Assembly (NCBI RefSeq): GCF_003713065.1
Contig: NZ_CP033433.1
Location: 434,001-498,000 of the forward strand
DNA from: Cohnella candidum
GTDB taxonomy: Bacteria > Bacillota > Bacilli > Paenibacillales > Paenibacillaceae
Reading direction: 5' to 3'
Length of the DNA stretch: 64,000 nucleotides
Each line of letters begins with the position of its first letter. The stretch's first letter is position 1. The position numbers and the translations under genes are program-made. Shown here piece after piece: positions 7,933 to 43,903 of this stretch. The notes beneath the pieces were generated by a model, which did no database searches, was not told the DNA's origin, and saw only the letters and a list, made by a program, of their open reading frames with translations.

Positions 7933-7961
7933 TGAAGAGGCAAGAATCGGCAAACATTCTT

Positions 7962-8015
7962 TTAACACCGCGTTAACAAATCATTGTCTTTCTCTTTACA
8001 CGGGCATGATAAAAA
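7962..8015 (+). promoter_or_regulatory. PhoP box and promoter for phoP
   Basis: Hexamers TTAACA (7962), TTAACA (7973), TTGTCT (7984) and TTTACA (7995) fall at exact 11-bp steps. Nine bases later comes TAAAAA (8010-8015) as -10. The Bacillus PhoP consensus is a direct repeat of TT(A/T/C)ACA spaced by 5 bp. The site predicts autoregulation of phoP independent of the upstream phoR. Confidence 0.85.
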
Positions 8016-8063
8016 GGGATTGTGAGCACAACACGGCAGTATGCTGCCGGACCGGAGGTCTGT

Positions 8064-8792
8064 ATGTCGGACAAGGTGCTGATCATCGAAGACGAACCCA
8101 CGCTCGCCCGCCTCGTGACGTATAACCTATCCCAGGAAGGTTACGAAACGGAAGTCGTCGGCAACGGGGCGGAAGGGCTGCACCGCGCGATCCATGACAG
8201 CTATGCCGTCATTTTCCTGGATTTGATGCTGCCCGGAATGAATGGCTTCGAGGTTTTGCAGAAGCTCAGGCAGCATGGCGTGAAAACGCCCGTTATCATT
8301 CTTACGGCACGGAACGCCGAAGAGGAAGTCGTGCAAGGTTTGCGGCTGGGGGCCGACGATTACATCACGAAGCCGTTCGGGGTCGCCGAGCTGCTGGCCC
8401 GCACGTCCGCAGTGCTTCGCCGATCCCGCAATGAAGAGGGTAAACCCGTGGTCCCTTCGGGGGGAGAGAAAGTCATCGCCCTCGGCGACCTGCAGATCTT
8501 TCCCGAAAAGTATGAGGTTTTCCTGAACGGGGAGTGGATCTCGCTCCGTCCGAAGGAGTTCGAGGTTCTGCTTTATTTGGCGGAAAGGCCGGGGATCGTC
8601 ATTACGCGCGACGACCTCATGAACGTCGTCTGGGGATTCGATTACGTCGGCGGGCAGCGGACGGTAGACGTCCACGTCAGCTCGCTTCGGAAGAAGCTGG
8701 AGCTGAACCAGCAGTCGGTGCAAATCGAATCGATCCGCGGCGTCGGCTACAAGCTGATCGTCAATCGCAAGGCAAGCGCACCGGGACGCTGA
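8064..8792 (+). CDS. phoP: PhoP: phosphate-regulon response regulator (OmpR family)
   Basis: DNA-binding response regulator of 242 residues. The receiver domain (1-120) has acidic residues Glu9/Asp10, phospho-acceptor Asp53 in VIFLDLMLPGMN, Thr in ILTAR and Lys in DDYITKPFG. An OmpR-type winged helix (about 140-235) includes SLRPKEFEVLLYLAERPG and TVDVHVSSLRKKL. The start is ATG 8064 with GGAGG 8 bp upstream; longer in-frame starts have none. The gene has its own Pho-box promoter. Identity as PhoP rather than WalR or ResD rests on the adjacent phoR-like kinase, the Pho box in front, and the dense set of Pho boxes in the next 28 kb. Confidence 0.9.
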   Translation: MSDKVLIIEDEPTLARLVTYNLSQEGYETEVVGNGAEGLHRAIHDSYAVIFLDLMLPGMNGFEVLQKLRQHGVKTPVIILTARNAEEEVVQGLRLGADDYITKPFGVAELLARTSAVLRRSRNEEGKPVVPSGGEKVIALGDLQIFPEKYEVFLNGEWISLRPKEFEVLLYLAERPGIVITRDDLMNVVWGFDYVGGQRTVDVHVSSLRKKLELNQQSVQIESIRGVGYKLIVNRKASAPGR

Positions 8793-18640: not shown

Positions 18641-18720
18641 CGATTTTCGTGAGGGACGATTTCGTTTATTGATTGGTAGTTGGTTGTAAGAGCATAGGAC
18701 ACCATAAGGAGGAAAACACC

Positions 18721-20481: not shown

Positions 20482-20508
20482 TCCGAAAAATTTTCATCGG
20501 CAAATCTC

Positions 20509-20535
20509 AAGCGGGTTCTTCGGGACCCGCTTTTC
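20509..20535 (+). terminator. Terminator after the quinoprotein gene
   Basis: AAGCGGGT (20509-20516) pairs with ACCCGCTT (20525-20532), with an 8-base loop and a short T-run. Confidence 0.75.
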
Positions 20536-20558
20536 ATTTCGCAAGGAGGAAACGCCCC

Positions 20559-21671
20559 ATGAAATTCATGTCCAAAGCGTTCGTTCTCGTTTTATTGGCA
20601 GCCTTGGCCGCAGGGTGCTCGGGAACCTGGAGTTCGGGGGGGAAGGACGCCCAAGACTTGCAAATCCGTCTCGATCAGACGGCATTTACCCTAAAACAGT
20701 GGAAGATGGACGGCTCCCATCGCTCCAGCGTGGGGGGCACGGTCACGATCGGGGAAAAACCGGTGGAAAGCGCCGTGCTTCACGCAGGGGAGATGAAACG
20801 CGACATCGAGACGGACGCGAAAGGAAAATTCGAAATCCTGCTGGACCAAAGCCTGCTCGGTACCGCGGCCGTGAAGGTCGTGTCGTTGGACCAAGCAAAG
20901 GTGGACGGAAAGCCGCTGAGCAAAGAAGAACAGCAACAAGGTCTTACCGCTTCCGCGAACATGCAGATTTATCACCCCATCACGATCGAATCGGTGACCG
21001 CTTCAGGGGATAACACCGTCGTCAAAGGCCGGCTGCTGGCCGATAAAACGGCTTCGGTGGCTTACTTCCAGCTCGATAAATACCGGATCGCCGGCACCGT
21101 GAAGGACGCGGAAGGCAAACCGGTCAAGGGAGCAACCGTATGGATCGACCGCGACGATGGCGAAGGCTTCGCCAAATCCGTCGGCACGGACGAGAACGGC
21201 CATTACGAAATGTTCTATTTACCGGAAGAAGACGAAGAAACGAATTTGTCCGTTCGGTACAATTCGGTGAAATACACGCTGCCGGAAGGGAAGGTTTACC
21301 ATCTCCCTGAGGACACGAGCCTGAACATCGACATCACGCTGCCCCGCGAGGGAACGGTCATCGTCGACAAGCCGCCGACGTTGGTCAGCCAAACCGCCCA
21401 GGGCGCCTTATATACCGGAATGGTCGTCGGTTTAGACATTCCCACCGGCAACACTGATTACACGGTAACCATTCCGGATGCCGAAGGCCGGTTTACTTTG
21501 ACGCTGCCGAAGAAAACCTGGGATCAACATCCGGCATTCCTGGAGACGAACATGACGAAATTCATCGAGAAAGACGCGCCGAATCCGGGCGACGCGGTTC
21601 CCTCCAGCTTTATCGAGGTGGAAGCGAACGCGCCGCGCGGCATTCAAGCGAAAGACACGACAACCAAATAA
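20559..21671 (+). CDS. Lipoprotein with carboxypeptidase-regulatory-like domains
   Basis: Secreted lipoprotein of 370 residues (lipobox LAAGC) without a recognised enzyme domain. At least two segments have the beta-sandwich pattern of carboxypeptidase-regulatory-like or Ig-like domains: VGGTVTIGEKPVESAVLHAG...DAKGKFEI and IAGTVKDAEGKPVKGATVWI...DENGHYEMFYLP. Such domains usually serve binding or spacing at the cell surface. ATG with AAGGAGG 9 bases upstream. It follows the quinoprotein gene but is separated by a terminator, and it has its own strong terminator, so a functional link is uncertain. Confidence 0.6.
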   Translation: MKFMSKAFVLVLLAALAAGCSGTWSSGGKDAQDLQIRLDQTAFTLKQWKMDGSHRSSVGGTVTIGEKPVESAVLHAGEMKRDIETDAKGKFEILLDQSLLGTAAVKVVSLDQAKVDGKPLSKEEQQQGLTASANMQIYHPITIESVTASGDNTVVKGRLLADKTASVAYFQLDKYRIAGTVKDAEGKPVKGATVWIDRDDGEGFAKSVGTDENGHYEMFYLPEEDEETNLSVRYNSVKYTLPEGKVYHLPEDTSLNIDITLPREGTVIVDKPPTLVSQTAQGALYTGMVVGLDIPTGNTDYTVTIPDAEGRFTLTLPKKTWDQHPAFLETNMTKFIEKDAPNPGDAVPSSFIEVEANAPRGIQAKDTTTK

Positions 21672-21685
21672 GCGAAGCACGAGAG

Positions 21686-21711
21686 ACCGCGTCCAAGGAC
21701 GCGGTTTTTTT
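21686..21711 (+). terminator. Rho-independent terminator
   Basis: ACCGCGTC (21686-21693) pairs with GACGCGGT (21698-21705) over a CAAG loop and is followed by seven T. Confidence 0.92.
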
Positions 21712-21736: not shown

Positions 21737-21790
21737 TTTACAGACCGTTAACAATTCGCATTTCACCGGTTGACATGGGCTTGGTAGCTT
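21737..21790 (+). promoter_or_regulatory. PhoP box and promoter for the CBS-MCP gene
   Basis: TTTACA (21737), TTAACA (21748), CATTTC (21759) and TTGACA (21770) fall at 11-bp steps. Nine bases later TAGCTT (21785-21790) is the -10. The third hexamer is degenerate, as in the other sites of this window. Confidence 0.83.
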
Positions 21791-21861
21791 GGAGGCAGGT
21801 TGTATTTTCCAGCCGATAGCTGTCTCTAACTTAAAAATTCATTCGAACGAGGTTGAAGCCC

Positions 21862-23007
21862 ATGAGCATCGCTGTTAGGGAACGCCCTGTCATTAACGCA
21901 ACGGAACCCGCCGAATGGGTGCAGCCGGCCGCCGTAAAGGATTGGTTGCGCTCTTGTCCCATCGTTCAACCCGACATGCTCTGCGAGGAGCTGGTAGAGC
22001 TGTTTCGCCGCAACACGGAATTGGAATGCGCGGTCGTATGCGACCCGGCGCGCCGGCCGCTCGGCCTTATGATGAAACACCGGTTTTTCCGGTCATTGGG
22101 CTCCACTTTCGGCATGTCCTTATTCGCGAGCAAACAAATCTCCCACCTGATGGAGACGGGGACGCTCACCGCCGAGGTCGACGTTCCTGCGCGGGAATTG
22201 ATCGACCGCGCGCTGTCGAGAAGCGAGGAAACGTTCTACGATGCCGCGATCATGACCGAGCGCGGCCAATTCGCCGGAATTCTTACCGTCAGCGACCTGC
22301 TCCATCTGTCGCGTATGCTGCAGCGGGAAGCGGCGGAGCGGCAGATCCGCACGGTCCGGGGGGCGGACGAGATGATCGGCCACATTCATCGGTCATTCCA
22401 AAACGTCGCGGCCGCCACCGCGGAAACGCGGTCATACAGCGAGAAAATGACGGAAGTGACGGGACATGGCCGTCAAGTGATGGAAGAAATGCTGCGGCTG
22501 TTCCGGCAATGGTCCGACCACGCCAAACAGCAGGAAGCGGCCATGGCGGAGTTGAACGAGGGTACCGCGGCGGCAAACCAGATCGCGAAGCTGATTGCGG
22601 AATTGGCCGACCGCTGCAATTTGCTGGCGGTTAACGCGGCGATCGAAGCGGCAAGAGCGGGGGAATACGGGAAAGGCTTCGCCGTCGTCGCCGGGGAGAT
22701 TCGCGAGCTTGCCGACGGCACGAAGCGTTCCGCGGGCGAAATCAACCGGAGGCTTCAGGCCATGACGGAGGCCGTCTCGAGAACCGTGGGCCTCGTGGAA
22801 GCCGGAAAGCAGGGCGCGGACCGCGGCATCGAACAGGTGGGGAGCGCGGAGGAGACGTTCGCCAAATTGTGGGACATTTCCGCCCAAAACGGCAAAGCCT
22901 CCCGCCGTCTCAGCGAAGCCGCGCGGGAAGCGGCCGACACGTCGGACGGCATCCGGACGGAAATCGGAAGGCTGATGGAGCAGATGAACGGGAGCACGAT
23001 GCTTTAA
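21862..23007 (+). CDS. Soluble CBS-domain methyl-accepting-type signalling protein
   Basis: A 381-residue cytoplasmic protein with no membrane segment. Residues 30-155 form a pair of CBS-like modules. Residues 165-381 are helical and contain the MCP signalling hairpin tip ([27 protein letters not shown]), the part that contacts CheA and CheW. The CBS part aligns with that of the EAL-CBS-GGDEF protein at 33.8 kb: [14 protein letters not shown] against PVGMLMREKLHQML, and [18 protein letters not shown] against YDAVILTRNGEVSGIVSI. ATG 21862 follows GAGG and a Pho box. CBS pairs commonly bind adenine nucleotides, so this may be a cytosolic energy or phosphate receptor feeding chemotaxis. The role is inferred. 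Confidence 0.78.
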
Positions 23008-23025: not shown

Positions 23026-23079
23026 TTAACAAATCCAATCATTCCCTTTTACGGGCTATTAATAAATCGCCTTTAAGAT
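23026..23079 (+). promoter_or_regulatory. PhoP box and promoter for the first pst operon
   Basis: TTAACA (23026), AATCAT (23037), TTTACG (23048) and TTAATA (23059) at 11-bp steps. TAAGAT (23074-23079) is the -10 after 9 bases. It drives the propeller protein gene and pstS1-C1-A1. Confidence 0.82.
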
Positions 23080-24246: not shown

Positions 24247-25101
24247 ATGAAAAAATGGTTTAAATCGCTCGGCGTCGCCGCTATGGCGATCGCGATTACG
24301 ACGACCGGAGTCACCGCTGCAGGCGCAGCCAGCTCCCTTAGCGGCAAAATCGTCATCAACGGCTCCTCCGCGCTTCTTCCTCTGACACTGCAAGCGGCCA
24401 ACGAGTTTAAGAAGCTGAACCCGAAAGTGAAAATTTCGGCTTCCGCCGCCGGTTCGGTAACGGGTCCGCAATCCGTCCGCAAAGGCATAGCCGACATCGG
24501 CGCTTGCGACTGGGATGCTTCGATGGACGTACCGGGCTTCAAGAAATTCGACGGCCAAGTCGCGAACCGCGTCGCGGTCATCCCGTTCGCTGCCGTCGTC
24601 AACAAGAACGTGAAAGTCGACAGCCTGACGAACAAACAGCTGGCCGACATTTTCTCCGGCAAAATCACGAACTGGAAAGACGTTGGCGGAGCCGATGCGG
24701 ACATCGTCGTCGTCAACCGCGCTTTCGGTTCGGGCACGCGCGTTAATTTCCAATTGAAGGCGCTGAACGGCGTCGACTTCATGACGAAGGGCAGCAACTA
24801 CAAAGAAGTCAAATCGAGCGGCGACATGAAGACGGCCGTCGACACGACTCCGAACGCGATCGGTTACCTGGATCTCGTATATGTCTCGGGCAGCATCAAA
24901 GCCCTGAAAATCAACGACGTCGCTCCGACGGAAGCCAACGTCATCAACGGCACTTATAAAGTTTGGGGCTACGGCTATTACATGACAAAGGGCCAGCCGA
25001 CGGGCGCGACGAAAGCGTTCATCGACTACGTGCAAAGCGCGAAGTTCCAAAACGGTTCCCTGAAGAAGCTCAAATTCATCCCGCTTTCGGCGATGAAGTA
25101 A
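24247..25101 (+). CDS. pstS: PstS-type phosphate-binding protein 1
   Basis: Extracellular binding component of a phosphate ABC importer, 284 residues. Family hallmarks are INGSSALLPL, KQLADIFSGKITNWKDVGG, VVVNRAFGSGTRVNF and AIGYLDLVYV. It differs from PstS2 in two ways. The signal peptide ends in AAGAASS without a lipobox cysteine, so tethering is unclear. The first phosphate loop reads SAAGSVTGPQSV rather than the canonical Gly-rich GGGSGGG. It lies in the Pho-box operon between the propeller gene and pstC1. Specificity might be altered; phosphate transport is the default reading. Confidence 0.85.
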   Translation: MKKWFKSLGVAAMAIAITTTGVTAAGAASSLSGKIVINGSSALLPLTLQAANEFKKLNPKVKISASAAGSVTGPQSVRKGIADIGACDWDASMDVPGFKKFDGQVANRVAVIPFAAVVNKNVKVDSLTNKQLADIFSGKITNWKDVGGADADIVVVNRAFGSGTRVNFQLKALNGVDFMTKGSNYKEVKSSGDMKTAVDTTPNAIGYLDLVYVSGSIKALKINDVAPTEANVINGTYKVWGYGYYMTKGQPTGATKAFIDYVQSAKFQNGSLKKLKFIPLSAMK

Positions 25102-25194
25102 GAGCTTGCCTCGGAAGAGAAACCTATGAAACGGAAGCGGCCAGCTTCGGCGTTCAACGCGCCGGGCTGGCTTCTTCATGAAGGGAGCTTCGCC

Positions 25195-26154
25195 ATGATC
25201 GAGTCTACCAGCAACCCGGCCATCGCCGTAAAAGGCGAACTGGGCCGCAGCATACGCACGGGATCCGGCCGGCGGACGGACCGCAAGAACCGGCTCCGAT
25301 TCTACAACCGGGCGTTCCGCATCGCCTGCATTGCCAGCGCCGTGTTCGTCTGCCTCATTCTGCTTTCGATCCTGTTTTTCATGTTCCGGACAGGCGTGCT
25401 GACGTTCCAAACCGTGTCTCCCGCCAAGTTCTTCTTTTCGACGGACTGGTCGCCGGAGAACGAATCCTACGGCGCATTCGTATTCATTTTCGGTACGGTT
25501 GCCCTGACGGTGCTGACGCTGCTCTTCTCGGTTCCGATTTCCGTATTCGTCGCCGTATTCCTGGCGGAAGTAGCGCCGTTGTGGCTGCGGAACCTCCTTC
25601 GGCCGATCCTGGATTTGCTGGTCGGCATTCCGTCCGTCGTTTACGGATTTCTAGGCATGACGATTCTGATTCCGCTCCTGCGGCAGGCCGCGGGAACCGA
25701 TCTGGCGGACGGGATATTGGCCGCTTCGATCGTGCTTAGCATCATGGTGCTTCCGACGATCAGCCGGATCAGCGACGACGCGATCAGCGCCGTGCCGAAG
25801 AAGTTCCGGGACGCTTCGTACGCGCTGGGAGCCACCCGGTTCCAAACGACCTTCCGCGTCGTGCTGCCTTCGGCTCGCAGCGGCATCCTGTACGGCGTGA
25901 TCCTGGGCATGGCCCGGGCCGTCGGCGAGACGATGGCGGTCGTCATGGTCATCGGCAACACGCCTCAGTTGGCCGACGCTTTCCTGAAGCCGACCTCCGT
26001 CCTGACCAGCAACATCGTCATGCAAATCCCGAACGTGCCGTTCGATTCGACCTGGAATTACGCTCTGTACATGATGGGCTTCCTGCTGCTCGCGATTTCG
26101 CTGCTGATGATCGTCGTGATCCGCGTCGTTCAGAGAAGGGGGGCCAAACGGTGA
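25195..26154 (+). CDS. pstC: Phosphate ABC transporter permease PstC 1
   Basis: Membrane permease of about 319 residues with six helices and the MetI-type coupling loop (RDASYALGATRFQTTFRVVLPSARSGI). ALGAT and PSAR are the EAA-loop residues that contact PstB. ATG 25195 has GAAGGGAG upstream. An in-frame ATG at 25126 with GGAAGAG is also possible and would add 23 residues rich in Arg and Lys. The gene overlaps pstA1 by 4 bp. Confidence 0.9.
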   Translation: MIESTSNPAIAVKGELGRSIRTGSGRRTDRKNRLRFYNRAFRIACIASAVFVCLILLSILFFMFRTGVLTFQTVSPAKFFFSTDWSPENESYGAFVFIFGTVALTVLTLLFSVPISVFVAVFLAEVAPLWLRNLLRPILDLLVGIPSVVYGFLGMTILIPLLRQAAGTDLADGILAASIVLSIMVLPTISRISDDAISAVPKKFRDASYALGATRFQTTFRVVLPSARSGILYGVILGMARAVGETMAVVMVIGNTPQLADAFLKPTSVLTSNIVMQIPNVPFDSTWNYALYMMGFLLLAISLLMIVVIRVVQRRGAKR

Positions 26155-26996
26155 ACCGCGTCAAGAACCGCATTTTTACGATTGCCGTATGGACCATCGC
26201 TTCCTGCGTGATCCTGTTCGTATTCGGTCTTCTCTTTTTGATTTTGCAGAGGGGCTTGCCTTCCTTGACCTGGGATTTCATCTTCGGGCTGCCCAGCGAG
26301 ATCGAAGAAGGAGGGGGCATCGGGCCCGCGTTGTTCAATTCCTTCTATATGTTGATCATTTCCATGGCGATCGCCATTCCGCTCGGCATGGCCGCCGGCA
26401 TTTATCTCGCCGAGTTCGCGCCGGACAACAAATGGATCGGATTCGTCCGCATTTGCGTGGAAGGGCTGGCATCCGTGCCGTCCATCATTTTCGGCTTGTT
26501 CGGAATCGCCTTGTTCGTTGAGATGTTCCAACTGGGACTGACGATTATCGGCGGCGCGGTCAGCCTGGCCTTCCTGAACCTGCCGGTCATTACGCGCGTT
26601 ACCGAAGAAGCGATCCGGGCGGTGCCCGGGGAACTGAGAAACGCGTCATTCGCGCTCGGAGCCACCCATTTGCAAACGATTCGGCGGGTGCTCATTCCCT
26701 CCGCGGTCAACGGGATCGTGACGGGGATTTGCTTGGCGGCGGGGCGCGCGTTCGGAGAGAGCGCCGTCATCATCTTGACCGCAGGCGTTACGACTTCCGG
26801 CGTCATGTGGGATTTCAATCTGTTGTCCCCGGGTGAAACGTTGGCCGTGCATCTGTGGTACGTGCAGTCGGAAGCCATCGTTCCGGACGCCCAGGAAATT
26901 TCGCAGAAAGCGGCGGCGGTGCTGTTGTTTCTCGTGCTTGCGATCAACGTCGTGTTCCGGATTCCGCTGTGGGTTCGGGAAAGAAGATTCCGCTGA
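26151..26996 (+). CDS. pstA: Phosphate ABC transporter permease PstA 1
   Basis: Second permease of the first Pst system, 281 residues. The GTG start overlaps the pstC1 stop (GTGA). FGLPSEIEEGGGIGPALFNSFYML is the PstA-specific first periplasmic region. The EAA loop is RNASFALGATHLQTIRRVLIPSAVNGI. A new Pho-box promoter follows before pstB1, so the ATPase and phoU1 can be transcribed separately from the membrane part. Confidence 0.9.
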   Translation: MNRVKNRIFTIAVWTIASCVILFVFGLLFLILQRGLPSLTWDFIFGLPSEIEEGGGIGPALFNSFYMLIISMAIAIPLGMAAGIYLAEFAPDNKWIGFVRICVEGLASVPSIIFGLFGIALFVEMFQLGLTIIGGAVSLAFLNLPVITRVTEEAIRAVPGELRNASFALGATHLQTIRRVLIPSAVNGIVTGICLAAGRAFGESAVIILTAGVTTSGVMWDFNLLSPGETLAVHLWYVQSEAIVPDAQEISQKAAAVLLFLVLAINVVFRIPLWVRERRFR

Positions 26997-27007
26997 CGGC
27001 TCCCGAT

Positions 27008-27061
27008 TTTACATTGCGTTAACAATTCGCGCACGCCTGCTTTACAAAGGCCGAGTATAAT
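27008..27061 (+). promoter_or_regulatory. Internal PhoP box and promoter before pstB1
   Basis: TTTACA (27008), TTAACA (27019), CGCACG (27030) and TTTACA (27041) at 11-bp steps, then 9 bases and a perfect TATAAT (27056-27061). It lies inside the pst1 cluster between pstA1 and pstB1. Confidence 0.87.
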
Positions 27062-27108
27062 TCGCGGGGTAAGACTTAAATCTATTAAATTCGAGCGGAG
27101 GAGCTCCT

Positions 27109-27864
27109 ATGCAAGCGTTAATCGAGATCGATCGCTTGAATTTGTTTTACGGAACGTTTCACGCGCTCAAAAACGTATCGATGAACATTCCCGAAAAGGC
27201 GATCACGGCCTTCATCGGTCCGTCGGGCTGCGGCAAATCGACGCTGCTCCGGTCGCTTAACCGGATGAACGACATGATTCCCGGGACTTCCATAGAAGGT
27301 GAGATCCGGATTTCCGGCGCGGATATCTACGGCAAAGACATCGACGTGGAGACGCTTCGCAAGAAGGTCGGCATGGTGTTCCAGCAGCCGAATCCTTTCC
27401 CCAAGTCGATTTACGATAACGTAGCTTACGGTCCCCGCCTGCACGGGATCACGAGCCGCCAGAAGCTCGACGAAATCGTGGAAGCCAGCCTGCGCGGAGC
27501 CGCCCTGTGGCATGAGGTCAAAGACCATCTGAAGCGTTCCGCGCTGAGTTTATCCGGCGGTCAGCAGCAGCGGCTGTGCATCGCACGGGCGCTCGCCGTG
27601 GAGCCGGACGTGCTGCTCATGGACGAAGCGACTTCCGCCCTCGACCCGATTTCGACCCTGAAAATCGAGGAACTGGCGCAGGAGTTGAAAAATAAATATA
27701 CGATCGTCATGGTTACGCATAACATGCACCAAGCGGCACGCGTATCGAACCAAACGGTGTTCTTCCTGAACGGCGAGGTCGTAGAATACGCCGAAACCGA
27801 GAAGCTGTTCTCCAATCCGGAAGATCAGCGTACGGAAGACTACATCAGCGGACGCTTCGGATAA
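27109..27864 (+). CDS. pstB: Phosphate ABC transporter ATPase PstB 1
   Basis: ATP-binding subunit of 251 residues. Walker A is GPSGCGKST, the Q-loop [22 protein letters not shown] is diagnostic of PstB, the signature is LSGGQQQR, Walker B is [12 protein letters not shown], and the H-loop is [12 protein letters not shown]. Expressed from its own Pho promoter together with phoU1. Confidence 0.95.
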
Positions 27865-27898
27865 GTATTATTTTGAACAGAGAGCGGAGGAAGCATCC

Positions 27899-28561
27899 AT
27901 GATGGTCAAACGGAGAGAGCTCGATCACGGGCTCGACGAAATACAGCAGCTGCTGGTTCAAATGGGACACCGCGTCGAAACCGCGCTGACCGAGGCCATG
28001 GAGGCTTTAAGAACGCTGAATATTAACGAAGCCAGGCGCCTGATCGCGGAAGACCTGGAGCTCAACGCGCTGGAGATGCATATCACCGAAATCGGCGCCA
28101 AGCTGATGGCGACGCAGCAGCCGGTGGCGAAAGATTTGCGAAACATCCTCGCGGCGCTCAAAATCAGCAGCGACCTGGAACGGATGGGCGATCTCGCGGT
28201 CGATATCGCCAAGGCCGCCGTCAGGCTGGAAGGCCAGGAACTGATCAAGCCGCTCATCGATTTGCCCCGTCTGGCCGAGATGGTGCGGGCCATGGTCGCC
28301 GACTCCGTCCGTTCTTATTTGGAGCAGAACGTCGACCTCGCTTACAAGCTCGACAAGGACGACCACGAGGTAGACGCGCTCTACAGCCAGATTTTGCGGG
28401 AACTGTTCTCTCTGATGGCGACTGATCCTTCGACGATTTCCCAATCGATGCTGCTCAGCTTCGTGGGGCGTTATATCGAACGGATCGGGGACCACGCTAC
28501 GAATATCGGGGAAAGTACCGTGTATCTCGTAACCGGCAAGCGGCCGGATTTGAATACCTAA
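27899..28561 (+). CDS. phoU: PhoU 1, phosphate-signalling regulator
   Basis: All-helical protein of 220 residues made of two PhoU repeats. Each has the acidic metal-binding pattern: EDLELNALEMHITE...DLRNILAALKISSDLERMGDLAVDIAKAAV in the first, KDDHEVDALYSQI...RYIERIGDHATNIGE in the second. PhoU usually passes transport status from PstSCAB to PhoR and holds it off when phosphate is plentiful. Two PhoU proteins in one region (see 32.5 kb) raise the question which one speaks to PhoR. Confidence 0.93.
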   Translation: MMVKRRELDHGLDEIQQLLVQMGHRVETALTEAMEALRTLNINEARRLIAEDLELNALEMHITEIGAKLMATQQPVAKDLRNILAALKISSDLERMGDLAVDIAKAAVRLEGQELIKPLIDLPRLAEMVRAMVADSVRSYLEQNVDLAYKLDKDDHEVDALYSQILRELFSLMATDPSTISQSMLLSFVGRYIERIGDHATNIGESTVYLVTGKRPDLNT

Positions 28562-28567
28562 TCGCGA

Positions 28568-28592
28568 ACAGCCTTTTTAAAGGCTGTTTTTT
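28568..28592 (+). terminator. Terminator of the pstB1-phoU1 unit
   Basis: ACAGCCTT (28568-28575) and AAGGCTGT (28580-28587) with a 4-base loop and a seven-T tail. Confidence 0.93.
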
Positions 28593-28660
28593 TGCGCTCC
28601 GAGAAGCGCCAAACAGGAAATGTAAACGCTAACATGGCATTCGATTAACGCCGTGTATAT

Positions 28661-28714
28661 TTTACATTCCGTTAACAAAACGAAAACATGACCTTGAAAA
28701 AGAGACGCTAGAAT
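28661..28714 (+). promoter_or_regulatory. PhoP box and promoter for the second pst operon
   Basis: TTTACA (28661), TTAACA (28672), AAAACA (28683) and TTGAAA (28694) at 11-bp steps, then 9 bases and TAGAAT (28709-28714). Confidence 0.87.
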
Positions 28715-28800
28715 TACAAATGTGAGAGGGAGCGAGGATAGGAATCCAAGCCGCTTACAAAAAAAGAGGTCCTTATATGAGGAAGGGGAAATCAAACATT

Positions 28801-29751
28801 ATGAAGAAATCGCTCGTCCTGGTTCTGACTTTGATCGTCGCCCTGACATTGGCAGCATGCGGCAAGAACAACAACGAAGGCGCCGCATCGGGCAGCCCGA
28901 GCGCTTCCGATTCCGCGCCTGCAAGCTCCGCCAGCGGCGAAGCTCTCAGCGGTACGATTCTCGCTGCAGGTTCCACGGCTCTCCAACCTCTGGTTGAACA
29001 AGTATCGACGAAATTCATGGCAGACAGCAAATACAGCGGCATCAGCGTAACCGTCCAAGGCGGCGGCAGCGGCGGCGGCCTGACGCAAGTGCAAGGCGGC
29101 CAAGCCGATATCGGCAACTCCGATATCTTCGCCGAAGAGAAATTCAAAGACGCAGACGCCGACAAAGCCAAAGAACTGGTTGACCATCAAGTCGCCGTCG
29201 TCGCGATCGCTCCAGTTGCCAACCCGAACGTCGGCGTAGACAACCTGACGAAGCAGCAGCTGGTCGACATCTTCTCCGGCAAAGTCACGAACTGGAAAGA
29301 CGTAGGCGGCGCGGATCAGAAGATCGTCATCGTCAACCGTCCGAGCAGCTCCGGCACGCGCAAAACGTTCGAAAACCTGGCACTCGGCGGCCCGTCCCAA
29401 GACCTTCCGGGCTCCATACAAGAAGATTCCTCCGGCACGGTTAAGAAACTCGTAGGCGAAACTCCGGGAGCCATCGGCTATCTCGCGCTTTCTTACCTCG
29501 ACAACACCGTGAAAGCATTGAAATACGAAGGCGTTGACGCTTCGGTCGAAAACATCACGACGGGCAAATATCCGGTATGGGCTTACGAGCACATGTACAC
29601 GAAAGGCGAACCGACTCCGGTCGTCAAAGCGTTCCTGGATTACCTGATGTCCGACGAGATCCAAAAATCCGACGTCACGGATATGGGCTACATTCCGGTC
29701 GGCGACATGAAAGTGGCTCGCGACGTGAACGGCACCGTATCGAACAAATAA
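28801..29751 (+). CDS. pstS: PstS-type phosphate-binding lipoprotein 2
   Basis: Phosphate-binding lipoprotein of 316 residues. The lipobox LTLAAC is followed by a short Ser/Ala tether and the canonical PstS fold: ILAAGSTALQPLVEQ, VQGGGSGGGLTQVQGGQADIG, DIFSGKVTNWKDVGG, VNRPSSSGTRKTF and GAIGYLALSYL. All anion-binding loops look normal, unlike PstS1. ATG 28801 starts a typical lipoprotein signal; ATG 28777, eight codons earlier, is also preceded by an AGAGG site and cannot be excluded. First gene of a complete pstSCAB-phoU operon behind a Pho box. Confidence 0.92.
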   Translation: MKKSLVLVLTLIVALTLAACGKNNNEGAASGSPSASDSAPASSASGEALSGTILAAGSTALQPLVEQVSTKFMADSKYSGISVTVQGGGSGGGLTQVQGGQADIGNSDIFAEEKFKDADADKAKELVDHQVAVVAIAPVANPNVGVDNLTKQQLVDIFSGKVTNWKDVGGADQKIVIVNRPSSSGTRKTFENLALGGPSQDLPGSIQEDSSGTVKKLVGETPGAIGYLALSYLDNTVKALKYEGVDASVENITTGKYPVWAYEHMYTKGEPTPVVKAFLDYLMSDEIQKSDVTDMGYIPVGDMKVARDVNGTVSNK

Positions 29752-29839
29752 ATAGACAGATTACTCCGGGCTTGATTACACCACAAGCGGAAGAGGTCGA
29801 CAAATGTCGGCCTCTGTCTGCCGTTAAAGGAGAGACCCT

Positions 29840-30766
29840 ATGAATTCCCCCGTCAAGCGAGAGAATGCAGCAGCGGACCGGGTCAGCCATTTTCCCAAGC
29901 ATATAAGAGAAGAGTGGGTCGGAAGGGTGTACGTGTATGCATGCGTGGCCCTTCTCGTCGTGACGATTTTCTCGATCGTCTGGTTTATCGCGTCGAAAGG
30001 ATTGACGCCTTTCGTCTCCGGGGCGATCCGAATCCAAGACTTGCTGACGGGCCGGGTCTGGAAGCCCGAGGGCGAACCGCCCCTGTTCGGAGCGCTGCCG
30101 TTCCTCGCCGGTTCGGCGTACGTTTCGTTCATCGCCGCGGCGATTGCAGCTCCGTTCGGCTTCTGTGCCGCTGTTTTCATGACGCAGATCGCTCCGAAGG
30201 TGGGACGCCGCGTACTCCAGCCGGCCATTGAGCTGCTCGCGGGTATCCCTTCCGTCGTATACGGCTTCGTAGGCTTGTCCGTCATCGTGCCGTTTCTGCG
30301 CGATACGTTTCCGGGACAAGGCTTCGGCATTCTAGCCGGATCGCTTGTGCTGTCCATCATGATCCTGCCGACCGTCACCTCGATCGCGACGGACGCGCTC
30401 AGCACACTCCCCGCGGGACTAAAGGAAGGTTCGTTCGCGCTGGGAGCGACACGTTGGCAGACGATCTACCGCCTGATCCTGCCCACGACGCTGCCGTCCT
30501 TGCTGACGGGCATCGTGCTCGGCATTTCGCGTGCGTTCGGCGAAGCGCTGGCCGTGCAGATGGTCATCGGCAACGCGCCTCACGTGCCGACCTCGCTGCT
30601 GCAGTCCGCAGCCACGCTGACGAGCATCATTACGCTCGAAATGGGCAATACGGTCGGCGGCTCGCTGCATAACAACACGCTGTGGAGCTTGGCTCTCATT
30701 TTGCTGGTCATGACCTTCTTGTTCGTCTTTATCGTCCGATTGCTGGAAAGGAGGGCCAAACGATGA
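29840..30766 (+). CDS. pstC: Phosphate ABC transporter permease PstC 2
   Basis: Permease of 308 residues with six predicted helices. The coupling loop is KEGSFALGATRWQTIYRLILPTTLPSL, and ELLAGIPSVVYGFVGLSVIVPFLRD is typical of PstC. AAAGGAGAG precedes the ATG. Its stop overlaps the pstA2 start (ATGA). It is clearly diverged from PstC1, so the two systems are not a recent duplication. Confidence 0.93.
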   Translation: MNSPVKRENAAADRVSHFPKHIREEWVGRVYVYACVALLVVTIFSIVWFIASKGLTPFVSGAIRIQDLLTGRVWKPEGEPPLFGALPFLAGSAYVSFIAAAIAAPFGFCAAVFMTQIAPKVGRRVLQPAIELLAGIPSVVYGFVGLSVIVPFLRDTFPGQGFGILAGSLVLSIMILPTVTSIATDALSTLPAGLKEGSFALGATRWQTIYRLILPTTLPSLLTGIVLGISRAFGEALAVQMVIGNAPHVPTSLLQSAATLTSIITLEMGNTVGGSLHNNTLWSLALILLVMTFLFVFIVRLLERRAKR

Positions 30767-31650
30767 AACCGAAAATCACGGACCGCATCGCTACCGGCGT
30801 CATCATCGGCATCGCGGGGATCATCATGGCGATTCTCGCCGGCCTGATCGTCTATCTGCTTTATCGCGGGCTTAGCCACATCAGTTGGCACTTCCTGACC
30901 TCGCCTCCACAGTCCTTTAAAGTGGGCGGCGGTATCGGGCCCCAGCTGTTCAACTCGCTGTATCTGCTCGTGCTTACCATGATCATCACGGTCCCGCTCG
31001 GCGTCGGCGCCGGCATTTATATGAGCGAATACGCCAAGGCGAATAAACTGACCGGGTTCATACGGCTGGTCGTCGAAGTTCTGTCGTCCTTTCCTTCCAT
31101 CGTCATCGGCTTGTTCGGTTTGCTCGTGTTCGTCAATCTGTTCCACATGAAATATTCGCTCGCAGCAGGCGCCTTGGCGCTTACGGTGTTCAACTTGCCT
31201 CTGATGGTAAGGATCACGGAGCAAGCTTTGCGCGGCGTTCCGCGTGAACAGAAGGAAGCGGGGCTTGCACTCGGACTGTCCAAATGGAAAACGATCCAGT
31301 CGATCATGCTGCCGATGGCTTTCCCGGCGATCATGACCGGGACGATCCTCGCGGCGGGCCGCGTATTCGGCGAAGCGGCCGCCTTGCTATTCACGGCCGG
31401 CATGACGACGCCGAAGCTCGACTTCACCAACTGGAATCCCGCGGATCCCCATTCTCCGCTCAATCCGTTCCGTCCGGCGGAGACGCTGGCGGTGCACATC
31501 TGGAAAATCAACAGCGAAGGGCGGGCGCCCGACGCTCCCGAAATCGCGGCCGGCGCTTCCGCCGTTCTGATCATCATCGTGCTGCTGTTCAACTTCGGCG
31601 CCCGCATGCTCGGCCGGGCGATCTACCGCAAGTTCACGGCGACGAAGTAG
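30763..31650 (+). CDS. pstA: Phosphate ABC transporter permease PstA 2
   Basis: Permease of 295 residues. ATG 30763 follows GGAAAGGAGGG and overlaps the pstC2 stop by 4 bp. [22 protein letters not shown] is the PstA-type opening, and [22 protein letters not shown] is the EAA loop. The C-terminal part before the last helix ([23 protein letters not shown]) is longer than in PstA1. Confidence 0.93.
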
Positions 31651-31660
31651 GAGGGATCCC

Positions 31661-32419
31661 ATGAGCGAAACGGCATTTTACACGAAGGATCTGTCCGTCT
31701 TCTACGGCGAAAAACAGGCGATCAAAAACATCAGCATGGATTTTCCGTCGCGCGAGGTCATCGCGCTGATCGGCCCGTCCGGGTGCGGCAAATCGACGTT
31801 CCTCCGCTCGCTGAACCGGATGAACGACGTCATCGCGGGCGCGCGCGTCGAGGGAGAAATCTGGATCAACGGCCGGGACATCAACGACAAGGGCACCGAC
31901 GTCGTACGGCTGCGACAGAAAATCGGCATGGTGTGGCAGAAGCCGAATCCGTTCCACAAATCGATTTACGAAAATATCGCGTTCGGTCCGCGTTACCATG
32001 GCGTCCGCAAGAAAAGCGAGCTGGACGAAATCGTCGAAAACAGCCTGCGCAAAACGGCGCTGTGGGACGAGGTCAAAGACCGGCTCCACGGATCGGCTCT
32101 GGCGTTGTCCGGCGGACAGCAGCAGCGCTTGTGCATCGCGCGGTCGGTCGCCGTACAGCCCAGCATCCTGCTCATGGACGAGCCGGCGTCCGCGCTTGAT
32201 CCGGTCTCGACGGCCAAGGTCGAAGAACTGATCGCCGAACTGAAGCGCGACTACTGCATCGTAATCGTTACGCACAACATGTATCAAGCCGCGAGGGTGT
32301 CGGATAAAACCGGCTTTTTCCTCATGGGGGATCTCGTCGAATACGACGAAACCCAGAAGATCTTCACGAATCCGTCGCACCGGTCGACGGACGACTACAT
32401 TTCCGGACGGTTCGGTTAA
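31661..32419 (+). CDS. pstB: Phosphate ABC transporter ATPase PstB 2
   Basis: ATPase of 252 residues with Walker [10 protein letters not shown], signature LSGGQQQR, Walker [13 protein letters not shown] and H-loop [12 protein letters not shown]. The Q-loop region reads [22 protein letters not shown], where PstB1 has MVFQQPNPF. This W/K change is a form seen in one of the duplicated PstB types. It starts 10 bp after pstA2. Confidence 0.95.
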
Positions 32420-32459
32420 TCGGAACGCCGGGGTCGAGATGACAAGGGAGGCCGTCTAG

Positions 32460-33116
32460 ATGGTGACGCGCAGGGAACTGGACGAAGGGTTAAAGCATTT
32501 GCAGGACATGCTGTGCCGAATGGGAGACCTTGTGGGGGTGCAGCTGAAGGATGCGATGGCGTCCTTGGTCGGCTTGAACGCCGAAGAAGCCCGGCGCGTC
32601 GTCGCCGAGGATCCGGCGCTGAACCGGATCGAAGAACAGATTTCCGAGGAGGCTGCCCGCCTGATCGCGACGCAGCAGCCGGTGGCGAAGGACTTGCGGA
32701 AAATACTCGCCGGGGTGAAGATCGCTTCCGATCTCGAGCGTATGGGCGACTTGGCCGTGGACGTCGCCAAAGCGACGATCCGGCTGGAAGGACAGGCTCT
32801 GGTGAAACCGCTGGTCGATCTGCCTCGCATGGCGGAATTGGTCCGGACGATGATCGCGGATTCGATCCGCGCCTACGTGGAAGAGAACGTGGACCTGGCG
32901 CACAAGATGGCCAAGGACGACGACCAGGTGGACGGTTTGTTCGGCGTCATTTTCATGGACCTCGCGGCCATTATGGCGGCGGATCCCCAGACGGTCAGCC
33001 AATCGATGCTGCTGTCGTTCGTGGCCCGCTACATCGAGCGGATCGCCGATCATGCGACGAATATCGGCGAAAGCGTCGTGTATTTGGTCACCGGCAAACG
33101 CCCCGATCTGAACTGA
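32460..33116 (+). CDS. phoU: PhoU 2, phosphate-signalling regulator
   Basis: A second PhoU of 218 residues with the same two-repeat layout as PhoU 1 (EDPALNRIEEQISEEAARLIATQQPVAKDLRKILAGVKIASDLERMG and RYIERIADHATNIGE). The second repeat has IADHA where PhoU 1 has IGDHA. It ends the second pst operon. The shared stretch TQQPVAKDLR marks the close relation of the two. Confidence 0.93.
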   Translation: MVTRRELDEGLKHLQDMLCRMGDLVGVQLKDAMASLVGLNAEEARRVVAEDPALNRIEEQISEEAARLIATQQPVAKDLRKILAGVKIASDLERMGDLAVDVAKATIRLEGQALVKPLVDLPRMAELVRTMIADSIRAYVEENVDLAHKMAKDDDQVDGLFGVIFMDLAAIMAADPQTVSQSMLLSFVARYIERIADHATNIGESVVYLVTGKRPDLN

Positions 33117-33653: not shown

Positions 33654-33697
33654 ATTCATCCCTCCGGGGTTCTATTTAAGATAAGTATACTTGGAAA

Positions 33698-33751
33698 TTT
33701 ACAAGCATTTAACATGTTTTCGACATTCAACGGACAAGCTCGTGATATTTT
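33698..33751 (+). promoter_or_regulatory. PhoP box and promoter for the EAL-CBS-GGDEF gene
   Basis: TTTACA (33698), TTAACA (33709), TCGACA (33720) and CGGACA (33731) at 11-bp steps, then 9 bases and TATTTT (33746-33751). Confidence 0.82.
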
Positions 33752-33816: not shown

Positions 33817-35628
33817 ATGGAAAAAAAGTTCGGCAAAGGATTGGACGTCGAAACGACGGAGCGGCTCGCGGCGGAGGTCATCCGGGTCGGCTTTGTATCC
33901 GAGGGACCTCCGGCAGGAGAAAGGATCGGCGTGCGTTATTCGCCTATCGTTTCGCTGACCGACGGCTCCTTGTTCGGGTACGAGGCGATTCCGTTCGATA
34001 CGTGGAGCCAAGCAGACTGGAAAACCGGAGATTTCTACGGCCTTTCCGAGCGGGAGGGAACGCTGTACGATAATGACCGGCGGTTCCGGGAAATGGCGAT
34101 CGGCGGCATTCCTTCGAGAGTGCCGGCTGTAAAGCTGTTTCTGCCCGTGCCCGCCCGCATCGTGTTCGAACCCCGGCTGTATCCCGGAAGCACGCTGGAA
34201 CGCATAGAAGCGGCGGGCTTGCGGCCCGAGCAAGTCGTCCTCCTGCTGACGGACGAAACGGACAGCCATGCGGGGACCTTCCATGCGGCGATTCGCCATT
34301 ATCGGACGCAAGGCTTCCGCATGGCCTTCTCCGGAATGAAAACCGCGCGGGAGTCCCTGGAACGGATCGTGGAGCTGAAGCCGGACTACGTCCGGATCGG
34401 AAGGGAATGGTACCCCCGCGAAGCGAGGGATCCCGCGGGCGAATGTTTGCTGCAAGCGGTGGCGGCGCTTGGCCGGAAAGAGAAGTTCGTGCTGATCGCG
34501 GAAGGGGTGGAGCGGGAGGATCAACTGCGTCCGCTCATGTCCGCGGGCGTCGGCTGCGGCCAAGGGCCGTGGATCGGCGCGGCGTCCGTAAGCGCCGAAC
34601 CCGTCAACCGGCTGGTCACGGACCGGATCCGTCAGGAAATGAGGCGAAGGTTCCGCGGATCCGCCGGCGGACTGGTGGAATTGGCGGAACCGGCCGTCGC
34701 CTTTCCCGGCTCGACGCCTGTGACGGAGATCGCCAGGCGATTCGAATTGCATCGGGAAGCGCCCGGCTTCGTGATCGTCGAAGAAGGCAAGCCGGTCGGC
34801 ATGTTAATGAGGGAAAAACTGCACCAAATGCTGGCCCGCCAATTCGGCCTCCCGCTGTACGGCAACCGTCCCGTATCGAAAATCATGGATGCCCAGCCGC
34901 TCGTCGTCGACGAAGGAACGCCGGTGGACCAGTTGTCGCAAACCGCGATGGCTCGGGAGCCGGACAAGCTGTATGACGCGGTGATATTGACCCGAAACGG
35001 CGAGGTCTCGGGCATCGTTTCGATCCGGTCCTTGCTGGAGTGGGTCACGCAGGCACGGATGTCGGATGCCCAATGGGCGAATCCTTTGACCGGCCTGCCG
35101 GGCAATGAACCGATCCGGCGCGAGCTGTCCAGGCGCCTGGAAGAAGGCCGGCCTTTTACGGTATTGTACGCGGACCTGGACCATTTTAAATGGTACAACG
35201 ACCGGTACGGATTCCACCGCGGGGACGATGTCATCCGCTTTACGTCGGAGGCGCTTCAGTCGGCGGTTCGCAAATACTGTCCCGAAGACAGCTTTGTCGG
35301 GCATATCGGCGGCGACGATTTCATCGCCATTTTCGATTACGGCAATCCGGTCCGAATCGGGGAGGAAGCGCTGTCGGAGTTCGACAACGGCATCTCTTCC
35401 TTTCAGGACCGTTCGCATGGCCAAGTCACCGACAGGTCGGGGAAAGCCGTGCAAAGCGCCGGACTCTCCTTGTCCCTGGCCGTGCTCTCCTGCCAGAAGG
35501 CGGAGGGCTGGACGCCGGAGCGGCTGTCGGAGCATTCCGCGCTCCTGAAGAAGGAGGCCAAAAGCAAGCCCGGCAGCGCTCTCGTTTGGAAGACGCTCGA
35601 GGAATACCGGGCGGTCGCCGGCTGCTAA
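33817..35628 (+). CDS. EAL(degenerate)-CBS-GGDEF signalling protein
   Basis: Soluble c-di-GMP-related protein of 603 residues. Residues 38-270 have the EAL fold, but EAL is YEAI (55-58) and the DDFGxGYSSL segment is replaced by FSGMKTARESL (171-181), so the metal site is lost and phosphodiesterase activity is unlikely. AEGVE and the later G-Q-G remain. Residues 295-412 are a CBS pair homologous to that of the MCP-like protein at 21.9 kb. The GGDEF domain (422-590) has NPLTGLPGN, YADLDHFKWYND and GGDDF at 498-502; it could be active or act as a GTP or c-di-GMP sensor. ATG 33817 has GGAGGG 6 bases upstream, behind a Pho box. Confidence 0.87.
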   Translation: MEKKFGKGLDVETTERLAAEVIRVGFVSEGPPAGERIGVRYSPIVSLTDGSLFGYEAIPFDTWSQADWKTGDFYGLSEREGTLYDNDRRFREMAIGGIPSRVPAVKLFLPVPARIVFEPRLYPGSTLERIEAAGLRPEQVVLLLTDETDSHAGTFHAAIRHYRTQGFRMAFSGMKTARESLERIVELKPDYVRIGREWYPREARDPAGECLLQAVAALGRKEKFVLIAEGVEREDQLRPLMSAGVGCGQGPWIGAASVSAEPVNRLVTDRIRQEMRRRFRGSAGGLVELAEPAVAFPGSTPVTEIARRFELHREAPGFVIVEEGKPVGMLMREKLHQMLARQFGLPLYGNRPVSKIMDAQPLVVDEGTPVDQLSQTAMAREPDKLYDAVILTRNGEVSGIVSIRSLLEWVTQARMSDAQWANPLTGLPGNEPIRRELSRRLEEGRPFTVLYADLDHFKWYNDRYGFHRGDDVIRFTSEALQSAVRKYCPEDSFVGHIGGDDFIAIFDYGNPVRIGEEALSEFDNGISSFQDRSHGQVTDRSGKAVQSAGLSLSLAVLSCQKAEGWTPERLSEHSALLKKEAKSKPGSALVWKTLEEYRAVAGC

Positions 35629-35726: not shown

Positions 35727-36989
35727 ATGAGATCGGCGATAGATGGAGGTATGGCTCCGATGGATATGTTTACGAGGGACCCATGGGGCAGGAGCGGGAC
35801 ATGGCCGGAAGCCGGGGCGCTGGGGCTGATCGGCTTGGATTTGCCCTTGTACGGAACGCATGAGGGCCCGCTGCCCGACGCGGAGGAGCCGGTTCGCTGG
35901 AACGCATGGCTGAGCCGGGTGCTCGGAGGGGATGCGGTCCGGTTCGGGGACCGGATCGGTTCCCATCTGTGGCTGTTCGCGGACATGTCGGGCATCGAAA
36001 CCGCGCGTTCCCTGGTTGATCTCGAAGGCCTCGCCCGAAAGCTGCGTGAACGTCTGCTTGCGGATTCCGACGAACTGCTGGGCGTGCGGGCGGGGTTCCA
36101 TCATCGGGCGGACAGGGGCTACGGAGCGGCCGTCGTTGCCGGTCCCGCCTCGCGCCCGTTCCAACACCGTCTGTATGAAGCGTTCCTCATGGCGGCTTCC
36201 AAGCTTTCGGGCTGGGGGCGGACCGAAAAGGAGACGCAAGCGGGGCTCGAGATGGAGCGCATCCTGCGCGAGGGGGATATCCGCAGCGCGTACCAGCCGA
36301 TCTTCCATTTGCGCGGAGGCCATTTGTACGGTTATGAAGCGCTGACCCGTTGTCCGAAAGGCAGCTTGTTTGACGGTCCTCTGGCCTTGTTCAGGTTCGC
36401 TGATCGGGAGGGCTACTCCTTCGCGCTCGACCGACTGGCACGGGAAACGGCGATCCGTTCCTGTCCGTTGCTCGGTCCGAAGCAGAAAATTTTCATCAAC
36501 GTCAATTCCGGCATCATGAAGGACCCGCATTTCGTGTCCGGACAAACGCGCCAGTGGCTGGCGGCCAGAGGGCTGCAGCCGGGACAGGTCGTGCTGGAGC
36601 TGACGGAGCGCGACTCCATCGACGATTTCGAGGAAGCGAAGCAAATGCTGGACCATTATCGCAGCCAAGGCTACGAGATCGCGATCGACGACGCGGGCGC
36701 CGGGTACTCTTCCCTTCAGGCGATCGTGGAGTTGAAGCCGGATTACATCAAGCTGGACAAATCCCTCGTCCAGAACGCGGACCGGGACGAAATGAAATTG
36801 CAGATGCTCCGAACGTTCGTCCGCTTTTCCAAACGAATGAGGATCCGCACCGTCGCGGAAGGAATCGAAACGCCGGAAGAGCTTCAGTTGGTCCGGAAGA
36901 TGGGCATCGATTTCGGCCAGGGCTTCCTGATCGGCAGGCCCAGCGAGCATCCGATCCTTGCGTTCCCCGCCGGGATTGGACTCGGATAA
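35727..36989 (+). CDS. c-di-GMP phosphodiesterase (degenerate GGDEF, intact EAL)
   Basis: Soluble protein of 420 residues. The first 170 residues look like a worn GGDEF domain (GGDAVRFGDRIGSHLWLFADMSG where RYGGDEF would be). The rest is an EAL domain with its catalytic set: YEALTR near residue 203, NVNSGIM, ELTERDSIDDF, AIDDAGAGYSSL, KLDKS, AEGIETPEE and GQGF. It should hydrolyse c-di-GMP to pGpG. GGAGG lies 6 bases before the ATG. It is the second c-di-GMP gene with its own Pho box, so phosphate starvation is predicted to raise a phosphodiesterase. Confidence 0.9.
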   Translation: MRSAIDGGMAPMDMFTRDPWGRSGTWPEAGALGLIGLDLPLYGTHEGPLPDAEEPVRWNAWLSRVLGGDAVRFGDRIGSHLWLFADMSGIETARSLVDLEGLARKLRERLLADSDELLGVRAGFHHRADRGYGAAVVAGPASRPFQHRLYEAFLMAASKLSGWGRTEKETQAGLEMERILREGDIRSAYQPIFHLRGGHLYGYEALTRCPKGSLFDGPLALFRFADREGYSFALDRLARETAIRSCPLLGPKQKIFINVNSGIMKDPHFVSGQTRQWLAARGLQPGQVVLELTERDSIDDFEEAKQMLDHYRSQGYEIAIDDAGAGYSSLQAIVELKPDYIKLDKSLVQNADRDEMKLQMLRTFVRFSKRMRIRTVAEGIETPEELQLVRKMGIDFGQGFLIGRPSEHPILAFPAGIGLG

Positions 36990-43810: not shown

Positions 43811-43903
43811 ACCCGCTGATAAAGGCAAACTTGCCGAAAGGCAAGGACGCAAAGCTATGGGTCTAATGTTCCTCGGGACGATGACTGCCAAGCCGCCAAA
43901 GGG
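43811..43903 (+). promoter_or_regulatory. Cyclic di-GMP-I riboswitch (GEMM)
   Basis: The GEMM aptamer core is clear: AAAGGCAAAC, a stem CTTGCC-GAAA-GGCAAG with its GNRA tetraloop, GGACGCAAAGC, TATGGGTCTAA and GACTGCCAAGCC. This is the c-di-GMP-I consensus, which folds around one ligand with tetraloop-receptor docking. A terminator begins 11 bases after it, and GGGGTG...CACCC (43900-43918) could pair alternatively and block that terminator. The controlled gene is the 57-residue ORF downstream. A variant sensing cGAMP instead cannot be ruled out by eye. Confidence 0.9.

Follow-up and report, generated by a model that had tools for sequence, protein, structure and literature searches.

A gene for a soluble chemoreceptor that joins a pair of CBS domains to an MCP signalling tip (CBS-MCP) stands beside pst and phoU genes in Cohnella candidum, and its relatives keep this company across genomes. 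The linkage of CBS-MCP to pst-phoU is new here and is the strongest evidence in this analysis. The window, by which we mean the whole stretch of DNA that was analysed, comprises 64,000 nucleotides (positions 434,001 to 498,000 of contig NZ_CP033433.1), and the features that matter to the argument are as follows.

21686..21711, + strand: intrinsic-terminator-like inverted repeat and T run, read from the sequence, 3′ of the upstream lipoprotein gene
21737..21775, + strand: Pho box TTTACA-5-TTAACA-6-ATTTCA-4-TTGACA before the CBS-MCP gene (3/24 mismatches)
21862..23007, + strand: CBS-MCP chemoreceptor gene, soluble product of 381 amino acids (open reading frame, Pfam, hydropathy)
21925..22341, + strand: CBS pair of CBS-MCP, RapA subtype (residues 22-160; R120, with T142 and D145 in CBS2)
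22342..23004, + strand: MCP signalling region, residues 161-381 (homology predicts a helical hairpin whose turn is near E268)
23026..23064, + strand: Pho box before a propeller gene and pst operon 1 (3 mismatches)
24247..28561, + strand: pst operon 1, pstS, pstC, pstA, pstB and phoU (names from translations of the open reading frames)
27008..27046, + strand: Pho box before pstB1 (3 mismatches)
28661..28699, + strand: Pho box before pst operon 2 (4 mismatches)
28777..33116, + strand: pst operon 2, a second pstS, pstC, pstA, pstB and phoU (translations and homologues)
33676..33736, + strand: Pho box cluster before the EAL-CBS-GGDEF gene
33817..35628, + strand: EAL-CBS-GGDEF protein of RapA-like architecture (start ATG 33817 preferred over TTG 33799)
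35727..36989, + strand: EAL protein with catalytic motifs present

The initial annotation had read the chemoreceptor as a CBS pair coupled to an MCP tip with no membrane segment, and Pfam and hydropathy bear this out. Translation likely starts at ATG 21862, with GAGG at 21849-21852, rather than at TTG 21853. Pfam places MCPsignal (PF00015) at residues 223-375 (E 4e-30) and gives a single CBS match at residues 94-149 (E 1.6e-6); the first CBS half is recognised through alignment with relatives. At E ≤ 0.01, MCPsignal is found in all 45 CBS-MCPs and CBS in 43 of them. No transmembrane segment was detected in the window protein, whose 19-residue mean hydropathy peaks at 0.94, and this peak is at most 1.76 among the 40 CBS-MCPs of the family, the window protein included. 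Pfam finds neither EAL nor GGDEF on the CBS-MCP chain, and only the protein at 33817-35628 carries both. The terminator-like repeat ends the upstream gene, and thus the CBS-MCP gene probably has its own promoter. The stretch before it (18673-21671) encodes two lipoprotein-like products, a PQQ-dehydrogenase-like propeller protein and a carboxypeptidase-regulatory-domain protein, and homologues of these also precede CBS-MCP at loci L141, L146, L149, L155 and L158.

The CBS query matches 269 of the 295 genomes in the family sample, a count that includes matches to EAL-CBS-GGDEF proteins. From the top of this match list, and hence not at random, we took 39 family CBS-MCP loci, 20 from the same genus and 19 from other genera. 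At 38 of the 39, pst or phoU genes lie within about 10 kb of the CBS-MCP gene, and the homologues of the pst operon genes adjoin the orthologues; the remaining locus (L170) has weak pst/phoU matches only. Gene orders vary. CBS-MCP may precede a propeller gene and pstSCAB, immediately precede pstB-phoU, or lie within the operon, flanked by pstA and pstB (L163) or by pstB and phoU (L172). Because linkage is kept in these different orders, it evidently outlasts rearrangement. In the window itself, 24247-33116 holds two complete pstSCAB-phoU sets in tandem.

Beyond the family, we drew on class and phylum samples of 151 and 199 partly overlapping genomes. At least five CBS-MCPs from four other families (L210, L214, L215, L264 and L282) were present among the loci inspected for architecture, and three of the five are pst-linked (L214 and L282, from one family, and L264). 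At L214 the order is pstS-pstC-pstA-pstB-phoU, CBS-MCP, EAL-CBS-GGDEF and polA. Two or more pst/phoU genes accompany 15 of 47 further loci with this CBS subtype (3/5 CBS-MCP loci and 12/42 others), of which 44 are from other families and three (L211-L213) from another genus of the window's family. The same was seen at none of 80 generic MCP loci, a control set that lacks the CBS subtype and differs in taxonomy; some contigs in this comparison are short. In other families, two longer MCPs that have no CBS pair were also found within a pst locus or next to one (L262:3666-5532 and L258:11916-13605), and another receptor type may occupy the pst-locus position there. At L210:8685-10625 (family f6, G430), an EAL gene and CBS-MCP have overlapping open frames, which resembles the split EAL and CBS-GGDEF frames of L213 and L216; the comparison is one of open frames.

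Both the CBS-MCP gene and the EAL-CBS-GGDEF gene had been described as lying behind Pho boxes, and our motif scan agrees (21737 and 33676). The cluster before the latter gene contains TTTACA-5-TTAACA-5-TCGACA-5-CGGACA at 33698-33736. Scoring used a Bacillus-type Pho box consensus. Five four-hexamer boxes with at most 3/24 mismatches occur in the window (7962, 21737, 23026, 27008 and 33676), and all five are on the + strand and precede genes. Ten first-order shuffles of a single strand contained none; such shuffles do not mimic the AT-richness of intergenic DNA, and the regions upstream of orthologues offer a better test. There, the best box has at most five mismatches in 23 of 39 cases, versus 10.9% of composition shuffles. 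The corresponding figure for other upstream open reading frames is 28 of 191, a comparison that is lenient toward these others because 330 bases were scanned for them and 270 bases around the start for the orthologues. Upstream of the other 16 of the 39 orthologues there is no box with at most five mismatches, which counts against the reading that CBS-MCP is Pho-induced. Elsewhere in the window, 6139-8792 encodes a histidine kinase (sCache-like, HAMP, PAS and HisKA) followed by an OmpR-type regulator, with the Pho box at 7962 between them. This is a PhoR/PhoP-like pair in kinase-regulator order, and a candidate for the cognate one. The PhoB model TIGR02154 has no match over its cut-off in the genome and 129 below it.

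The CBS pair of the chemoreceptor had also been said to align end to end with that of the nearby EAL-CBS-GGDEF protein, and this holds and is specific. A single pairwise BLASTP comparison of the two pairs gives 27% identity over 105 amino acids (E 5e-18). With hhalign, the CBS pair of CBS-MCP aligns with the single sequence over 112 columns (Prob 99.75, E 3e-27), and when the two families are compared (32 CBS-MCP rows and 31 EAL-CBS-GGDEF-type rows), 136 of 139 columns align with Prob 100 and E 8e-45. A failure to align in profile-profile comparison, which had been named as the outcome that would speak against the idea, thus did not occur. PF00571 matches 12 open reading frames of the genome, namely 11 others and the EAL-CBS-GGDEF protein, and CBS-MCP is absent from that list. 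Using CBS-MCP as a single-sequence query, only CBS-MCP and the EAL-CBS-GGDEF protein are recovered from the genome at E ≤ 1e-3 (all five candidates scored), and a profile query at the same threshold recovers the same two proteins among 27 scored of 38 candidates. Because the other CBS proteins of the genome go unmatched, the two must have a specific CBS subtype in common. The subtype extends further. EAL/GGDEF proteins borne on plasmids of Pseudomonas aeruginosa match the CBS pair of CBS-MCP, the best at 36.6% over 108 amino acids (E 9e-9), and the subtype is found with MCP and with EAL/GGDEF outputs in several families.

It had further been proposed that one sensor module feeds two outputs. 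For the type of module this stands, given its occurrence with both kinds of output across several families. The idea that both sense one and the same thing is not supported in that form, since the two pairs are 27% identical, fall on opposite sides of a tree and differ at Asp145. Residue R120 is invariant in all 96 CBS-pair rows. The sequence GILTVSD in CBS2 of CBS-MCP fits the adenine-nucleotide motif G-h-h-T/S-x-x-D, in which T142 and D145 are presumably the signature of a nucleotide site; the motif is absent from CBS1, where GLMMKHRF occupies its place. T142 and D145 are each present in 38 of 40 family CBS-MCPs, and D145 is also kept by two lone CBS proteins of the window's family. In rows whose CBS pair is linked to EAL and/or GGDEF, D145 occurs in 2 of 47: in neither group of three at CBS-MCP loci of the window's family (0/3 and 0/3), in 1/34 EAL-CBS-GGDEF proteins elsewhere, in 0/2 EAL-CBS proteins, and in 1/5 CBS-GGDEF proteins elsewhere, this one being L213 from another genus of the family. 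With 38/40 set against 2/47, the type of module is common, and the ligand site need not be. Among the five CBS-MCPs of other families, D145 is missing from exactly the three that are pst-linked (L214, L264 and L282), and the two that retain it (L210 and L215) have no pst genes nearby in the fetched stretch. Pst linkage and D145 are therefore uncoupled outside the family, and either the ligand or the role of D145 differs there.

A PDB search yielded no closely related solved structure for the CBS pair, the best hit being a multi-CBS protein (E 6e-10), and the CBS profile of the EAL-CBS-GGDEF proteins reaches E 3e-15 at best. An AlphaFold model of CBS-MCP built on a 21-row alignment has a pTM of 0.48. 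It is confident over one unbroken helix at 143-380, with no turn where homology leads us to expect a hairpin, and of low confidence over most of the CBS pair, with pLDDT below 62 in every 10-residue block of 31-140. We set this model aside as evidence.

The absence of a CheW-binding tip, likewise named beforehand as a refuting outcome, is not what we found. Solved chemoreceptor chains align across the tip, in which N258, A259, I261 and E262 are present in 45 of 45 CBS-MCPs and G267, G270, G272 and F273 in 44 of 45. Judged by these residues, a predicted CheW/CheA-binding tip is conserved. In 44 of the 45 proteins the D145 column and G267 lie 122 residues apart, in the remaining one 123, and this constant spacing argues for a rigid helix. 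The C-arm measures 114 residues in the window protein and 108-128 in family CBS-MCPs (24 of 40 matched by the tip pattern), compared with 134-156 in 12 further full-length MCPs from this genome matched in the same way; one more match, L132, is interrupted by a stop. Methylation consensus sites are typical of methyl-accepting members and are dispensable for the fold. Of the family's 40 CBS-MCPs, 3 carry such a site; of the genome's other MCPs, 11 of the 13 that were checkable do, a count that leaves out the 11 of its 25 own MCP loci on which the tip pattern failed. The pattern scan found no such site in the window protein. We call CBS-MCP a chemoreceptor, a term that does not imply methyl-accepting status. 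The genome has 25 MCPsignal matches over the cut-off, CBS-MCP included, and two matches to CheA. At least one CheA match is present in all 295 family genomes, and for this reason a test of co-loss with chemotaxis had no power.

In a tree of the CBS pairs (96 rows and 139 columns, with a bootstrap that had not settled), the 40 family CBS-MCPs, L210, L215 and two lone CBS proteins make up one side (98/99); the opposite side holds the EAL-CBS-GGDEF proteins, the window's own among them. By this placement the two CBS pairs of the window are old lineages. The CBS-MCPs of f18 and f89 branch among the EAL-CBS-GGDEF proteins, which suggested several separate fusions of CBS to MCP. A single clade of all 45 is unrejected by the AU test (p 0.072), even though the constrained tree bears the extra cost of splitting two lone CBS proteins off from the clade, and p rises to 0.30 when L264 is left out. 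The MCP halves of all 19 sampled CBS-MCPs form one branch (SH-aLRT 96) in a quick tree that included 50 of 79 generic MCPs, gave long-branch warnings and showed odd composition in six of these CBS-MCP rows. With the single clade unrejected, the MCP halves united in one branch and the spacing fixed, we prefer one old fusion as the simpler account and do not claim several. Two lone CBS proteins in the CBS-MCP clade (L211 and L212, g13, from the window's family) keep D145 and look like proteins that once had an MCP half; the stretch fetched around them holds no pst genes.

The second half of the proposed sharing, the c-di-GMP protein, calls for a similar qualification. The GGDEF side of the 33817-35628 protein retains GGDDF and could be a cyclase or an effector. 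Its EAL half is degenerate, with the motif EAI and with DDFG replaced, and looks catalytically dead. The adjacent EAL protein at 35727-36989 keeps the EAL catalytic motifs and is a probable c-di-GMP phosphodiesterase. A c-di-GMP-I-GGC riboswitch (72 bits) lies farther along at 43815-43901, roughly 0.4 kb ahead of the gene at 44277, for which sugar-ABC substrate-binding models give matches below their cut-offs.

Our reading of these observations, for which we would put the chances a little short of even, is that CBS-MCP is a Pho-induced, weakly adapting cytoplasmic receptor that passes the internal phosphate or energy state to CheA. PhoP would act on the four-repeat box at 21737-21775 and turn on CBS-MCP along with the two pst operons and the gene for the EAL-CBS-GGDEF protein. 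The protein may then dimerise through its CBS pair, where an intracellular ligand would report phosphate or energy status. The likeliest ligand is an adenine nucleotide, bound in CBS2 where T142 and D145 mark the site, and R120 and a YD motif, common to the EAL-CBS-GGDEF kin, might form the joint part of the ligand site. The helix, 122 residues from D145 to the turn, could relay the change to the tip, and the tip is predicted to dock with both CheW and CheA within the chemotaxis array, which would bias swimming. Given its short C-arm and lack of methylation consensus sites, CBS-MCP would probably give a lasting bias instead of adaptation. The neighbouring Pho-controlled GGDEF/EAL proteins may set c-di-GMP in parallel, and with such parallel control, moving and settling would be decided from the same phosphate-related information.

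Perhaps the CBS pair instead reads a protein. It might dock PhoU or PstB and signal to CheA how the Pi transporter is working, much as CtpL acts through PstS, for which the accessible text of one report provides a precedent (PMC4926252). The position of CBS-MCP directly before pstB or among pst genes (L163, L167, L168, L172-L177 and L179) suits such docking, and linkage is kept at three loci of other families that all lack D145. However, the canonical small-molecule signature stands in CBS2 of nearly all family CBS-MCPs, and the subtype occurs without pst genes nearby at 30 of 42 non-MCP loci, some of them on short contigs. On balance we consider this unlikely, if far from negligible. Co-location by chance, in which a soluble MCP with a generic CBS pair came to lie at pst in this family by accident, strikes us as very improbable. 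CBS domains are common and MCPs are numerous in this genome (25 matches), but the CBS match is to a specific subtype, gene order has been rearranged while linkage is kept, and the counts (38/39 in the family, 3/5 in other families and 0/80 at generic MCP loci) speak against accident.

A third explanation is that the protein does not steer swimming by phosphate as such but serves as a receptor for c-di-GMP or an alarmone, or as an accessory of the second CheA system, and belongs to the Pho regulon because starvation alters motility generally. Its CBS subtype does recur in GGDEF/EAL proteins, the EAL and CBS-MCP frames overlap at L210 (G430), the genome has two CheA matches, and the C-arm is shorter than in the 12 checkable full-length other MCPs. 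Nevertheless, an EAL-CBS-GGDEF gene lies within the fetched 20 kb at only 5 of the 39 family CBS-MCP loci, against the 38 with pst or phoU, and visual inspection of the CBS pair turned up no motif for binding c-di-GMP. We judge this explanation improbable.

If CBS-MCP is the Pho-induced receptor of internal phosphate or energy state that we favour, the proposal might be extended to the whole phylum. Pst-linked, methylation-independent cytoplasmic receptors would then be widespread, and a CBS pair sensing phosphate status would have been joined both to MCPs and to c-di-GMP enzymes and would answer to one intracellular ligand. We view this extension as rather doubtful. Were it true, one ligand would tell starving cells how to swim and whether to leave a biofilm. 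Since CBS-MCP and Pho-linked c-di-GMP proteins have this CBS subtype in common, the ligand of the one would suggest or exclude that of the other.

Cytoplasmic chemoreceptors such as TlpD, HemAT and TM14 have sensor domains other than CBS. Like CBS-MCP, they combine an MCP signalling domain with the lack of a transmembrane segment. In the accessible portions of the open-access literature, subscription journals aside, we found no CBS-sensor chemoreceptor tied to pst or phosphate, which is weak evidence of absence, and no phosphate receptor described in the window's bacterial group. The accessible part of a paper on Paenibacillus sonchi at low Pi lists MCP genes, whose locus numbers do not adjoin those of its pst genes. 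CBS domains in c-di-GMP proteins are described, in the accessible text of a review, as putative sensors whose roles are without experimental validation (PMC8846402).

Two further systems invite direct comparison. RapA of Pseudomonas fluorescens is a Pho-controlled phosphodiesterase that lowers c-di-GMP at Pi starvation, according to the available part of the report (PMC3032545), and PA3258 of P. aeruginosa is an EAL-CBS-GGDEF protein of which RapA is termed a homologue, again in the text available (PMC12900916). Pho control and EAL-CBS-GGDEF architecture liken these to the EAL-CBS-GGDEF protein of the window, with which a plasmid-borne P. aeruginosa EAL/GGDEF protein has 29% identity over 549 amino acids; it is from the plasmid-borne Pseudomonas proteins that we infer the CBS subtype of RapA and PA3258. 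CBS-MCP differs from both in having an MCP output instead of EAL/GGDEF, and in having D145. The second comparison is with phosphate taxis in Pseudomonas, which uses receptors that sense Pi or Pi-loaded PstS. As far as the accessible text goes, the ligand-binding domain of CtpH in P. aeruginosa binds Pi, and CtpL binds Pi-loaded periplasmic PstS (PMC4926252). Like these, the window CBS-MCP is a chemoreceptor tied to phosphate, in the case of CtpL through a Pst protein. Unlike them, it has neither a membrane segment nor an extracytoplasmic ligand-binding domain and carries a CBS pair, and a soluble receptor of this kind at a pst-phoU locus would constitute a second, internal route of phosphate taxis.
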